DNA of 58,688 nt from Actinomycetes bacterium (GTDB taxonomy: Bacteria > Actinomycetota > Acidimicrobiia > Acidimicrobiales > Acidimicrobiaceae), in assembly GCA_021822605.1 (NCBI GenBank), contig JAKAQL010000010.1, forward strand, positions 1-58,688, in the 5' to 3' direction. The position numbers and the translations under genes are program-made. Of the stretch, positions 15,960 through 21,015 are shown one piece after another. The notes beneath the pieces are model-generated. The model had not been told where the DNA came from. It worked only from the letters and a program-made list of their open reading frames with translations, and did not search any database. The first letter of the stretch is position 1, and each line of letters begins with the position of its first letter.

Positions 15960-17606
<1,647 letters not shown>

Positions 17607-17798: not shown

Positions 17799-18545
17799 AT
17801 GGTAGAGGATGAAGCAATGATGAGTGTCGAAGAGCATATCGACGAGGCTGATGGACCGGGTGTTCCGTGTTCTGAGGTCACACAAGGACTCAGTGTCTTG
17901 CACCTCTTCGGAGATGCGACCGAAAATTTTGATCCTGAGCTTGCGACGGCGAGGGTTAAACAGAGCACTGAGCGTGGCACGCAGGTCTTAACGGTTGCAA
18001 CGCTGGGCCATCGTTGTGAAGTTGCCATTATGGCACTCGACCACGATCTTCTTAACCTTCGGCGCCTTCAGCTGGACCTACGACGTGCTGGTATCGTCTT
18101 CAACGATTCGTTTGTCTCCATCACCGAAGTATCGGAGTATGCCCGCAATATCACCGAGGAGCGTAAGCGACCGCGTCTCTATCCGAAGTTGCCACCCAAA
18201 GGCAAGGACGCATGGTGTTTCTACCCCATGGCGAAGCGTCGAAAGGTTGATCAGAATTGGTACTCGCTGGGCTTTGATGAGCGAGAACGCCTGATGGGAG
18301 AGCATGGTTCATCTGGTCGGAAGTTTGCAGGTCGAGTCACTCAGTTGGTCACCGGTGCGACTGGGGTGAGTGATTGGGAGTGGGGTGTTACACTGTTTGC
18401 TCGTCACCCCGATGACCTGAAGGATGTTGTGTACACTATGCGCTACGATGAAGCATCGGCAGTGTACGCAGAGTTTGGGCCGTTTTACGTGGGTATTCTG
18501 CAGGATCCCGAGGTTGTCTTCTCTTCCCTCGTTGCTGACACATGA
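17799..18545 (+). CDS. chdC: Coproheme decarboxylase (HemQ/ChdC)
   Basis: A 248-residue protein of the chlorite-dismutase fold that oxidatively decarboxylates coproheme to haem b, the last step of the coproporphyrin-dependent pathway of Gram-positive bacteria. The conserved FYPMAKRR block (catalytic Tyr about 142) is followed by NWYSL, and GEHG carries the proximal haem ligand His169; WEWGVTLFA and YAEFGPFYVGI are further actinobacterial signatures. The ATG has AAGGAG 8 bases upstream. The partner enzymes hemE and cgoX lie at 26.2-28.7 kb on the other strand. larE follows 41 bases downstream. Confidence 0.94.
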   Translation: MVEDEAMMSVEEHIDEADGPGVPCSEVTQGLSVLHLFGDATENFDPELATARVKQSTERGTQVLTVATLGHRCEVAIMALDHDLLNLRRLQLDLRRAGIVFNDSFVSITEVSEYARNITEERKRPRLYPKLPPKGKDAWCFYPMAKRRKVDQNWYSLGFDERERLMGEHGSSGRKFAGRVTQLVTGATGVSDWEWGVTLFARHPDDLKDVVYTMRYDEASAVYAEFGPFYVGILQDPEVVFSSLVADT

Positions 18546-18586: not shown

Positions 18587-19447
18587 ATGGTTCAGGACTT
18601 CGACACATCCCTGGTTGATGCCAAGATAGAGGAAGTTGGGCGCTGGTTCCAAGCCGTCGGCCGTGTGGTGGTTGCTCTCTCTGGAGGAGTCGACTCCGCT
18701 GTCCTTGCTGCGCTGGCCAAGAGGACGCTAGGACACGATGCGCTGGCGGCGACTGCCGTCTCTCCATCGCTGTCTCAAGAAGAACTCGATGGCGTTAGAG
18801 TGTTTGCTCGGCGAGAGTCCTTGAACTTCGTGGAGGTTCAAACCGATGAGATCAGAGACCCAAACTACGTCAAGAACGCGCCAGATCGATGCTATGTCTG
18901 CAAAAGTCACCTCTTCGAAGAGCTGTTGCCCATCGCGCGCCGACGAAATGCCACCATAGTGGTCGGCACCAACCTCGATGACCTAGGTGATTATCGTCCC
19001 GGTTTACAGGCCGCGAAGGAATTTGGAGTGGCCTCACCTTTCGTGGAGTGTGGGGTGAACAAGTGGATGATCCGGTCAATGGCTCGCTCGCTTGGTCTCG
19101 ACAAGATTGCGGAAAAGCCGGCATCAGCGTGCCTGGCCTCTCGGATTCCCTATGGCATGCCGGTTACGATCCAGCGACTCAGTGCAGTCGAGCGTCTTGA
19201 ACGGTTCCTCCATCGGCTGGGTCTCCCGGTAGTGAGGGTACGCCACCATGGAGATATTGCAAGGATCGAACTGCCACCAGAGATGTTCCCCCAAATGTTG
19301 GCCAATCGAGAGCGAATTGCGGCTGAAGCCGAACGGCTTGGATTCCTCTATAGTACGCTCGACTTAGGGGGATTTAGGAGTGGCTCTTTGAATCGGGTGC
19401 TCAGGGGGACAAGCGGCGATGAAAGTGATCGTCAAACTTTGGTATGA
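18587..19447 (+). CDS. larE: LarE-type ATP-dependent sulfur transferase
   Basis: A 286-residue PP-loop enzyme with the pyrophosphatase motif LSGGVDS (31-37). LarE adenylates and then thiolates a pyridinium biscarboxylate mononucleotide to build the nickel-pincer cofactor of lactate racemase and related enzymes. RCYVCKSHLF (Cys102, Cys105), GTNLDDLGDYRPGL and the KPASACLASR stretch with Cys182 are family features; Cys182 should match the sulfur-donating Cys176 of Lactobacillus LarE. The C102/C105/C182 trio may instead hold an iron-sulfur cluster, as described for some LarE. No larB, larC or racemase is in the window. It overlaps the NIL-domain gene by 29 bases. Confidence 0.88.
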   Translation: MVQDFDTSLVDAKIEEVGRWFQAVGRVVVALSGGVDSAVLAALAKRTLGHDALAATAVSPSLSQEELDGVRVFARRESLNFVEVQTDEIRDPNYVKNAPDRCYVCKSHLFEELLPIARRRNATIVVGTNLDDLGDYRPGLQAAKEFGVASPFVECGVNKWMIRSMARSLGLDKIAEKPASACLASRIPYGMPVTIQRLSAVERLERFLHRLGLPVVRVRHHGDIARIELPPEMFPQMLANRERIAAEAERLGFLYSTLDLGGFRSGSLNRVLRGTSGDESDRQTLV

Positions 19448-19664
19448 GGGAACGCTTATTGGTGAACCCATCATTGCTGAACTCGTGAGAAAGTTCGGTG
19501 TGGTTGCCAATATCAACCGCGCGAACGTCGAGGACGATCTCGGTTGGATCGTCTGCACGCTTGAGGGCGATCAACACTCCCTAGGGGACGCGAACGATTG
19601 GCTGGTATCCATTGGCGTGGAGGTGGAGATGATGGAGGAAGGCGGGGACGATGACGCTCGGTGA
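19419..19664 (+). CDS. NIL-domain protein
   Basis: An 81-residue protein consisting of little more than a NIL domain: a beta strand VIVKLWYEG, a helix IIAELVRKFGV, VNIxRAN-like VVANINRAN, and a second half WIVCTLEGDQ...ANDWLVSIGVEVEMM. NIL domains are ACT-like sensors usually found at the C-terminus of methionine ABC-transporter ATPases (MetN) or with 4Fe-4S domains in sulfur metabolism proteins. Here it is free-standing, overlapping larE upstream and the next gene downstream (14 bases), so all three are probably co-translated. A small-molecule sensor or sulfur-carrier accessory role would be a guess. Confidence 0.75.
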   Translation: MKVIVKLWYEGTLIGEPIIAELVRKFGVVANINRANVEDDLGWIVCTLEGDQHSLGDANDWLVSIGVEVEMMEEGGDDDAR

Positions 19665-20013
19665 GCAGGTAACCCAGGAGGAGTTTGAGAATATTTCTGC
19701 AGTCTTTCTTGAGGGGCTCCTGACGGCAATCCCGGCCTATTTTGCGCGAGTCGAAGCCGAGCTAGTCCGCGAGGGCGAGGTTTATCTTGACTGGCTCATT
19801 GAACTGGAGAGCGATGTCGAGTCAGAGTTAGCTCGTTTGTTGAGTGCGCCAGCGGAGACACAGCGAGAACCACCGGTCGGGTTGATTCGTCGGCGGATCT
19901 TAGAAGGGTTGGCCTCCAATGGTTGCTCAGCGAGCATACCAGCTCTACAGCGGCGAGGTCTCTTGCCTGCTAGCGCCGTCGACATCGACTCGGATCTTCA
20001 GCGTTACACCTAG
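19651..20013 (+). CDS. Hypothetical protein in the larE operon
   Basis: A 120-residue acidic, mostly helical protein that I do not recognise. The first 70 residues (to about AxLLSAP) are rich in Glu and Leu with heptad-like spacing and could form a helical bundle; the rest contains RRRILEGLASNGCSASIP and a short C-terminal tail. No membrane segment or signal peptide. It overlaps the NIL-domain gene by 14 bases with a GGAGG-like site (GAAGGCGGGG) upstream of its ATG, and is the last gene of the unit. The overlap makes it a real gene; function is unknown. Confidence 0.65.
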   Translation: MTLGEQVTQEEFENISAVFLEGLLTAIPAYFARVEAELVREGEVYLDWLIELESDVESELARLLSAPAETQREPPVGLIRRRILEGLASNGCSASIPALQRRGLLPASAVDIDSDLQRYT

Positions 20014-20071
20014 CCTGGGGCGTCGCGAAGGCTCGTAGGATGCGTGCACTCACCCAAGAGTCGACGAGGGG

Positions 20072-20260
20072 CTAGTTATCTTTGCGTTTTGGAATCTCCC
20101 ATCCGATCTTGGTGACCCGAGTGCGTGCCTCGTAGAAAAGGCAATCAGGTGGGCAGGCGAACGGAAGATCAAGGTTGGCTTTGAGCCTGCACCTTTGGAT
20201 GCGCTCCCCAGAAGGTAGCGTTTGTAGAACGTAATGTTTGCAGGTCTCTTGAATGGCCAC
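20072..20260 (-). CDS. Small Cys-rich protein, putative metal-binding
   Basis: A 62-residue protein with Cys7-x-His9, Cys24, and Cys36-x3-Cys40 in the context PFACPPDCLFYEAR, an arrangement able to bind zinc or iron. ATG at 20260 has AAGGG 5 bases upstream. The compact sequence, LKAN followed by PFACP..CLF, looks like a conserved actinobacterial small protein family rather than random coding, although I cannot name it. It diverges from the Nudix gene and converges on the larE operon. Confidence that it is coding is moderate to good; no function is proposed. Confidence 0.65.
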   Translation of the reverse strand: MAIQETCKHYVLQTLPSGERIQRCRLKANLDLPFACPPDCLFYEARTRVTKIGWEIPKRKDN

Positions 20261-20310
20261 CCTTGTAGAGTACCAGTCCTAAGCTGATGGGGAGCAAAGG
20301 AAGAAGTCAA

Positions 20311-21015
20311 GTGGGAGATGCGGAACAAAGTGACCAGGGTCTGGCAAGCGATCTGGGGTCAGCGACGGTGCATGAGCTAGCGGAGTGGATCCTATCGCTG
20401 ACCGCTATCGCACGGACCGGCTTAGCCTTTAGTGACTCGCTTTATGAGCGTGAGCGTTACGACGAAGTTCTCAAGGTGGTTGCCAGAATGCAGCAGGTGG
20501 CCATCGCCGAGAACACTGGGGTCGATGCGTCAGTGTTGACCGAGGAGGGGCCACGTGGAGTTCCGGGCTATGTGACGCCCAAGACTGCCGTCGGTGCCAT
20601 CGTGCTTGATTCCTCCCGGCGTATGCTCTTGGTACGTCGGGCAGATAGTGGGGTCTGGTTGTATCCAACGGGCTGGGCAGACGTCGGATACTCGCCAGCA
20701 GAGGTGGTGGTCAAGGAGGTTCAGGAGGAGACGGGCATCCGCTGCACGCCGACGCGTCTGCTTGCGGTTCTTGACGGAATGCGACTGGGGTTTACCCGAG
20801 TGGCAATGTATAGCTCCATCTTCCTTTGTCGAGCCGATGGCGGTGAACTCAAACCTCACCCACTGGAGACCTCAGGAGCGGACTGGTTCGAAATAGACGG
20901 GCTTCCGCCGCGTCTGGAAGCACTCCTAGCACTGCCATGGTTGAGCTGGATCCAACAGGGAACGGAGCCTCCGCTCACCACGTACTTCGATCCCGTGCGA
21001 AGTGATCGGGTCTAA
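20311..21015 (+). CDS. Nudix hydrolase with N-terminal Nudix_N-type domain
   Basis: A protein of about 234 residues. The first 60 or so residues form a helical domain (VHELAEWILSLTAIARTGLAF, YDEVLKVVARMQ) like the N-terminal extension of bacterial ADP-ribose/nucleotide-sugar Nudix enzymes. The Nudix fold begins near VGAIVLD; the box runs GWADVGY...KEVQEETGI. The first glutamate of the box (GX5E) is Tyr and the Arg of REUXEE is Lys, while the metal-binding EE pair is kept. GTG at 20311 with AAGGAAG upstream is preferred; an ATG at 20287 would add 8 residues but lacks a site. Substrate unknown. Confidence 0.8.
   Translation: MGDAEQSDQGLASDLGSATVHELAEWILSLTAIARTGLAFSDSLYERERYDEVLKVVARMQQVAIAENTGVDASVLTEEGPRGVPGYVTPKTAVGAIVLDSSRRMLLVRRADSGVWLYPTGWADVGYSPAEVVVKEVQEETGIRCTPTRLLAVLDGMRLGFTRVAMYSSIFLCRADGGELKPHPLETSGADWFEIDGLPPRLEALLALPWLSWIQQGTEPPLTTYFDPVRSDRV

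Follow-up and report, generated by a model that had tools for sequence, protein, structure and literature searches.

The window, i.e. the whole stretch of 58,688 nucleotides that was analysed, is contig C78 of a 2.8-Mb genome that consists of 120 contigs and is 95.3% complete. Its forward strand carries a larE gene (18587..19447, 286 aa), followed by the gene of a free-standing NIL protein (19419..19664, 81 aa; PF09383 with 53.1 bits, cut-off 24) and by a third open reading frame (19651..20013, 120 aa). The overlap is 29 bases between larE and the NIL gene and 14 bases between the NIL gene and the third frame; the unit of three overlapping genes that the sequence-only reading had described is real. 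Its boundary at larE, however, did not hold. A gene for a HemQ-like protein of the chlorite dismutase family (17799..18545, forward strand; PF06778 with 149.5 bits) ends 41 bases before the start of larE on the same strand, and groEL (Cpn60; 15975..17606, forward strand; PF00118 with 271 bits) precedes it as the first gene of the conserved neighbourhood. In many relatives, groEL adjoins HemQ or NIL. The NF008913 score of the HemQ-like protein, 207.5 bits, is below the cut-off of 253, and ‘HemQ’ is used here as shorthand for this gene. Downstream of the three genes lies a NUDIX hydrolase gene (20287..21015, forward strand; PF00293 with 56.6 bits), which is also found close by in a number of relatives.

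The LarE protein exceeds the cut-off of the curated TIGR00268 model (292.5 versus 150 bits) and matches LarE entries of the PDB. It contains the SGGXDS motif as SGGVDS, and its Cys102, Cys105 and Cys182 form a CXXC-C arrangement that is common to the other 23 class LarEs aligned (sequence L108 is cut before the RXR segment). Alignment to PDB entry 5udq places the third cysteine one position off Cys176 of LarE_Lp. Thermotoga maritima LarE, a [4Fe-4S]-dependent sulfur insertase of nickel-pincer-nucleotide (NPN) synthesis, shares the SGGXDS motif, the CXXC-C arrangement and the shifted third cysteine, and its three cysteines are ligands of the [4Fe-4S] cluster according to the available part of PMC9283937. 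Furthermore, Ser185 and the RVR arginines align, in the SRIPYG and RVR segments, with Ser180, Arg212 and Arg214 of LarE_Lp, which the same part of that paper gives as proposed P2CMN phosphate-binding residues. Since LarE has the SGGXDS and CXXC-C motifs, ordinary NPN synthesis is the best reading, with the window LarE as a candidate [4Fe-4S]-type NPN sulfur insertase of the ordinary kind. The window LarE differs from its T. maritima counterpart in that its gene is preceded by a HemQ-like gene and shares an overlap with a NIL gene, and its cluster and activity are predicted; the word NIL is absent from the main text of the T. maritima paper (PMC9283937).

Neither the third protein nor its family gave a Pfam or NCBIfam match over cut-off. 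Congeneric relatives exceed it by about 20 residues, and inspection by eye shows a continuation that matches theirs in a different frame of the window, reaching about position 20075. The third frame is thus broken near its end, in the region 19990-20075, by an assembly error or in reality, and the protein is a divergent, shortened representative of an unnamed family that belongs to this neighbourhood. A direct search had found the gene in 10 of 42 genomes of the taxonomic family, in three of its eight genera, which gave the impression that it was confined to this group. An iterated profile overturned this view: of the loci fetched from L057 on, 67 contain the family (several represent the same gene), and in 52 of these it lies within 700 bases downstream of NIL. 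In loci of the class, it follows NIL or, in some of them, LarE where NIL is missing. For an intact relative, structure prediction gave a fold made up of helices only (pLDDT 95.9), for which the PDB offered no convincing match (best E 0.43). As the family is present in loci without LarE, a role of the third protein in NPN synthesis is unlikely. Its gene belongs to the neighbourhood in this class and is no partner of LarE.

The NPN pathway and its client protein

The sequence-only reading had noted the lack of larB, larC and a racemase gene. This is correct for the window, where no LarB, LarC or Lar_N match over cut-off was found, but it does not apply to the genome, which encodes LarC (C38:14119-15234, 289 bits), two LarBs (C38:13458-14090, 208 bits; C81:8887-9501, 223 bits) and a single LarA homologue (Lar_N, C7:20072-20647, 136 bits). 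The two LarB paralogues are 38% identical (L056 7411-8106 and L110 8827-9681); one precedes LarC and the other lies near a Sua5-type gene. larE on C78 is not clustered with larB and larC on C38, and the genes are likewise apart in other sampled relatives. Clustering of larE with larB and larC is a frequent feature of the NPN pathway, not a defining one.

Among 148 genomes of the class, the own one included, matches over cut-off were obtained for LarE in 24, LarC in 25, LarB in 25 and Lar_N in 27, and the four sets of genomes overlap almost completely. The few exceptions are G145, with LarA, LarB and LarC and without LarE over cut-off, G004, with LarE, LarB and LarC and without Lar_N, and G054, G075 and G087, which have Lar_N without LarC. 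In a sample of 296 genomes of the phylum, LarC was found in 193 and LarE over cut-off in 178.

The LarA homologue retains the first catalytic histidine and the lysine, whereas the second histidine of the catalytic pair His108/His174 is missing. In the LarA of the relative G014 (L111), an asparagine takes the place of LarA_Lp His174 in HMMER alignments with 6c1w and 2yjg (positions counted by hand); the own homologue has the same segment, without a histidine there. Its best PDB match is 9q2u, a single-His enzyme (E 3e-36), although in this comparison the asparagine position falls inside a four-residue gap. By residue count, 9q2u is the LarA_Sp of PMC12611868 as far as the accessible text of that paper goes. 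There, lactate racemization was not detected for LarA_Sp, and carbohydrate metabolism is suggested for single-His LarA homologues. The own homologue resembles LarA_Sp and LarA_Bw of that text in having one catalytic histidine, with asparagine at the His174 place in the relative's alignment, and differs in its setting, which is a lipid-like operon. Next to the LarA gene lies a gene for an SDR-HAD protein and, in relatives, also genes for a Zn-alcohol dehydrogenase and a PlsC-type acyltransferase by Pfam; tblastn showed similar genes beside the own LarA. LarA loci were fetched from 12 of the 27 class genomes with Lar_N, and PlsC adjoins LarA in 11 of them (L041-L051, not L040). The operon of SDR-HAD, Zn-alcohol dehydrogenase, single-His LarA homologue and PlsC is conserved across L109 7293-13903 (C7 of the own genome, G000), L111, L113 and L041-L051.

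Because of the missing second catalytic histidine and the lipid-like operon, lactate is an unlikely substrate, and the LarA homologue is probably not a lactate racemase. The suspicion that the module does not serve lactate racemase is therefore supported, for a reason other than the one originally given. The operon suggests an NPN enzyme in lipid metabolism, and the homologue might carry out a new client reaction for NPN.

Genomic settings of the NIL gene

In the class sample, NIL was found once each in 32 of the 148 genomes. LarE over cut-off is present as well in eight of these, in every case adjacent to NIL; the other 24 lack LarE over cut-off and have NIL mostly behind HemQ. Conversely, 16 of the 24 LarE genomes gave no NIL match. 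Twenty-two loci from the 24 genomes with NIL and without LarE were fetched (L064-L085), and HemQ stands beside NIL in 21 of them; in the remaining one (L076), NIL lies behind an apparent groEL, as read by eye. From the class alone, it seemed that NIL belongs to HemQ, which is contradicted as a full explanation by the survey of the phylum.

Using a profile built from the class NILs, we found NIL in 113 of the 296 phylum genomes. It neighbours LarE, within about 1 kb, in at least 25 genomes from 11 families and in three arrangements. This number comprises 23 genomes by coordinates plus G220 and G246 by their loci (the pair of G405 is 1.04 kb apart), and it is a lower bound as the phylum LarE matches listed go down to about 260 bits. 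Among the 23 pairs found by coordinates, 18 have LarE before NIL, four, all of one family, are convergent, and one has NIL before LarE. By chance, adjacency would be expected in about 0.14 genomes, on a rough assumption of 2500 genes and with related genomes not being independent. Conservation of NIL next to LarE therefore extends far beyond the genome under study. A lack of such conservation had been named in advance, together with a complete larA/B/C set elsewhere, as speaking against the sequence-only reading, and it was not observed.

Presence and absence of the two genes gave a different picture. LarE occurs in 90 of the 113 genomes with NIL and in 88 of the 183 without it (kinship uncorrected), which at first looked like an excess of co-occurrence. 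The source of this excess is 73 lower-scoring NILs, mostly longer frames, only four of which are adjacent to LarE. Among the 40 genomes whose NILs are closest (at least 79 bits), no excess of LarE was observed (26 of 40, compared to 178 of 296 overall; kinship uncorrected), and in 21 of these 26 the two genes are adjacent. The signal for the NIL type of the window is adjacency, not presence or absence.

Other settings of NIL were collected by a pattern scan of named genomes that required N-x-R-R-A-N and ranked loci by identity to a LarE-linked NIL; the following shares refer to the best 80 of 117 loci and are not unbiased rates. LarE lies within 1.6 kb of NIL in 39 of the 80. The other 41 comprise HemQ without LarE (16), genes like those for cysteine synthase, ThiS, ThiF or serine acetyltransferase (10), MnmA (6), groEL (2) and other neighbours (7). 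Nine of the 39 LarE-linked loci are convergent and do not form an operon. A SAT-like gene adjoins NIL in nine of the 39, which form a single cluster with Thermoleophilia among its members, and six of these nine also have a ThiF-like gene. On chosen neighbours, Pfam confirmed PALP, ThiS, ThiF and a NifU_N-MnmA protein as well as a hexapeptide/SATase_N protein in L148, while all neighbours other than these examples are named by tblastn. In six loci (L172, L173, L180, L182, L184 and L187), NIL is flanked by a MurJ-like gene on one side and, on the other, by an MnmA-like gene in convergent orientation; in L172, these are MurJ and a NifU_N-MnmA fusion by Pfam. NIL is not specific to LarE, as it stays in the 24 class genomes that lack LarE over cut-off and is found in MnmA and CysK/ThiS settings. 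Since NIL persists without LarE in so many of the class genomes that carry it (24 of 32), it cannot act solely as a LarE regulator.

These settings bear on the question whether NIL is a mere neighbour of LarE, i.e. part of an old block of groEL, HemQ, NIL and the unnamed family inside which LarE happens to lie, with no role of NIL in NPN synthesis. The almost constant HemQ neighbour in the LarE-less class loci and the continuation of the groEL-HemQ-NIL block with the unnamed family are in line with this view. Outside the class, however, the pairing of NIL with LarE persists where the stretch read contains no HemQ, with the gene order reversed or convergent and with surroundings that differ between lineages. 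In addition, LarE-linked NILs form several clusters on the NIL tree, where the LarE label requires 6 changes compared to a shuffled mean of 27.3 (MnmA 1, HemQ 2), although the tree is built on few columns, leaves 38 of its 77 inner branches open and places the window NIL on a long branch. We consider it unlikely that NIL is no more than a passenger.

Proposed role of the NIL protein

The structure model of the window NIL (pLDDT 91.7) matches C2 domains of MetN (Foldseek E 3.8e-8, TM 0.80), and MetN or MetN-type NIL domains make up its top eleven Foldseek hits. In the sequence profile, Asn31 aligns with Asn295 of E. coli MetN (position counted by hand), and the N295A mutation of MetN increases the Ki for L-methionine 28-fold according to the available part of PMC12357092. 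This asparagine is kept in 66 of the 71 rows of the class profile, the others having serine (3) or aspartate (2), with some loci repeating a gene; in the 80-locus scan it was demanded by the pattern, and its presence there is uninformative on conservation. The window NIL shares with the MetN C2 domain the predicted fold and the aligned ligand residue. Unlike this domain, it is free-standing, with no transporter attached, and has R-A-N where E. coli MetN has S-A-Q. A NIL domain is likewise tied to a sulfur-transfer system in the NIL/ferredoxin proteins of homocysteine synthesis (accessible portions of PMC5764234 and PMC12068725), whereas the window NIL has no ferredoxin domain (81 aa with the NIL match at 4-70) and neighbours LarE instead of a DUF39/COG1900 protein.

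Owing to the MetN C2-like fold and the aligned ligand asparagine, a ligand-sensing role is the most economical reading, in which NIL would be a putative sulfur-status sensor acting on sulfur-transfer enzymes. NIL had been described from the start as a sensor tied to sulfur; the predicted fold and the conserved asparagine support this description, and the sensing itself is what we infer from them. We propose that LarE would make the dithiocarboxylate intermediate between the LarB and LarC steps, with LarB and LarC being encoded elsewhere in the genome and NPN destined for the LarA homologue, whose reaction is probably other than lactate racemization. NIL, made just downstream of LarE, would most likely bind a sulfur amino acid, i.e. 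methionine or a relative, and tune LarE, possibly by physical contact, to the sulfur supply, as it might tune other sulfur-transfer enzymes in other lineages. The third protein would stand outside NPN synthesis. To this proposal as a whole, an ordinary LarE insertase tuned by a NIL sensor next to an unrelated third protein, we give an even chance.

Alternatively, NIL might be an adaptor or sulfur-relay subunit that docks PP-loop or carrier-dependent sulfur transferases such as LarE, MnmA and CysK/ThiS to a cysteine desulfurase or sulfide source. Sulfur transfer is what the NIL partners have in common, and NIL/ferredoxin proteins are required for homocysteine formation in Desulfovibrio, as stated in the portion of PMC5764234 at hand. 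Against this stand the fold, which is that of a ligand-binding domain, and the lack of a conserved cysteine: Cys46 occurs in 20 of 40 LarE-linked NIL rows and 3 of the 7 ‘other’ rows, whereas all HemQ/groEL (18), MnmA (6) and Cys (10) rows lack it. A persulfide carrier acting through Cys46 had seemed attractive, as it looked like a switch between the LarE-linked NILs of this order, which have Cys46, and the HemQ-only NILs of other families, which do not; the idea was dropped because LarE-linked NILs of other classes have leucine at this position. An adaptor role is thus rather improbable. The least probable alternative is the original suggestion of the sequence-only reading, in which the sulfur would go into a molecule different from the NPN precursor. 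The placement of larE on a different contig from larB, larC and larA can be cited in its favour, but this suggestion is very hard to reconcile with the ordinary LarE motifs, the retained residues proposed for P2CMN phosphate binding, the joint distribution of LarE, LarB, LarC and LarA across the 148 class genomes with few exceptions, and the complete larA/B/C set elsewhere in the genome, a finding that had been named in advance as speaking against it and that makes sulfur insertion for another pathway unnecessary.

Returning to NIL as a sensor that tunes LarE, a wider role can be considered. NIL might be a general sulfur-status subunit that unrelated systems (LarE, MnmA and cysteine-synthase/ThiS) have adopted and whose gene, in NPN synthesis, would join larB, larC and larE as a fourth maturation gene that has gone unrecognised. 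We regard this extension as tentative and somewhat doubtful. If true, a single small regulator would serve nickel-cofactor, tRNA-thiolation and cysteine pathways alike, and the NIL genes beside MnmA and CysK/ThiS genes would point to such a shared sulfur sensor. The available part of PMC11796402 presents NPN synthesis as the work of LarB, LarE and LarC alone. In an open-literature search, no paper was found that joins the NIL domain with LarE or with HemQ, so that a recurrent NIL partner of otherwise ordinary NPN synthesis appeared in none of the papers searched. What is new is the association of NIL with sulfur transfer and the operon of the single-His LarA homologue, rather than a LarE substrate. 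A conserved partner of LarE would be a hint of control over the sulfur step of NPN synthesis, and the NIL-LarE pair is small enough for direct testing.

The trio of LarE, NIL and the unnamed gene is also carried by the relative G014 (locus L106), which we take to be Acidimicrobium ferrooxidans. The text of PMC5764234, as far as available, lists Acidimicrobium ferrooxidans as an organism without the traditional, the DUF39 and the protein-thiocarboxylate routes to homocysteine.
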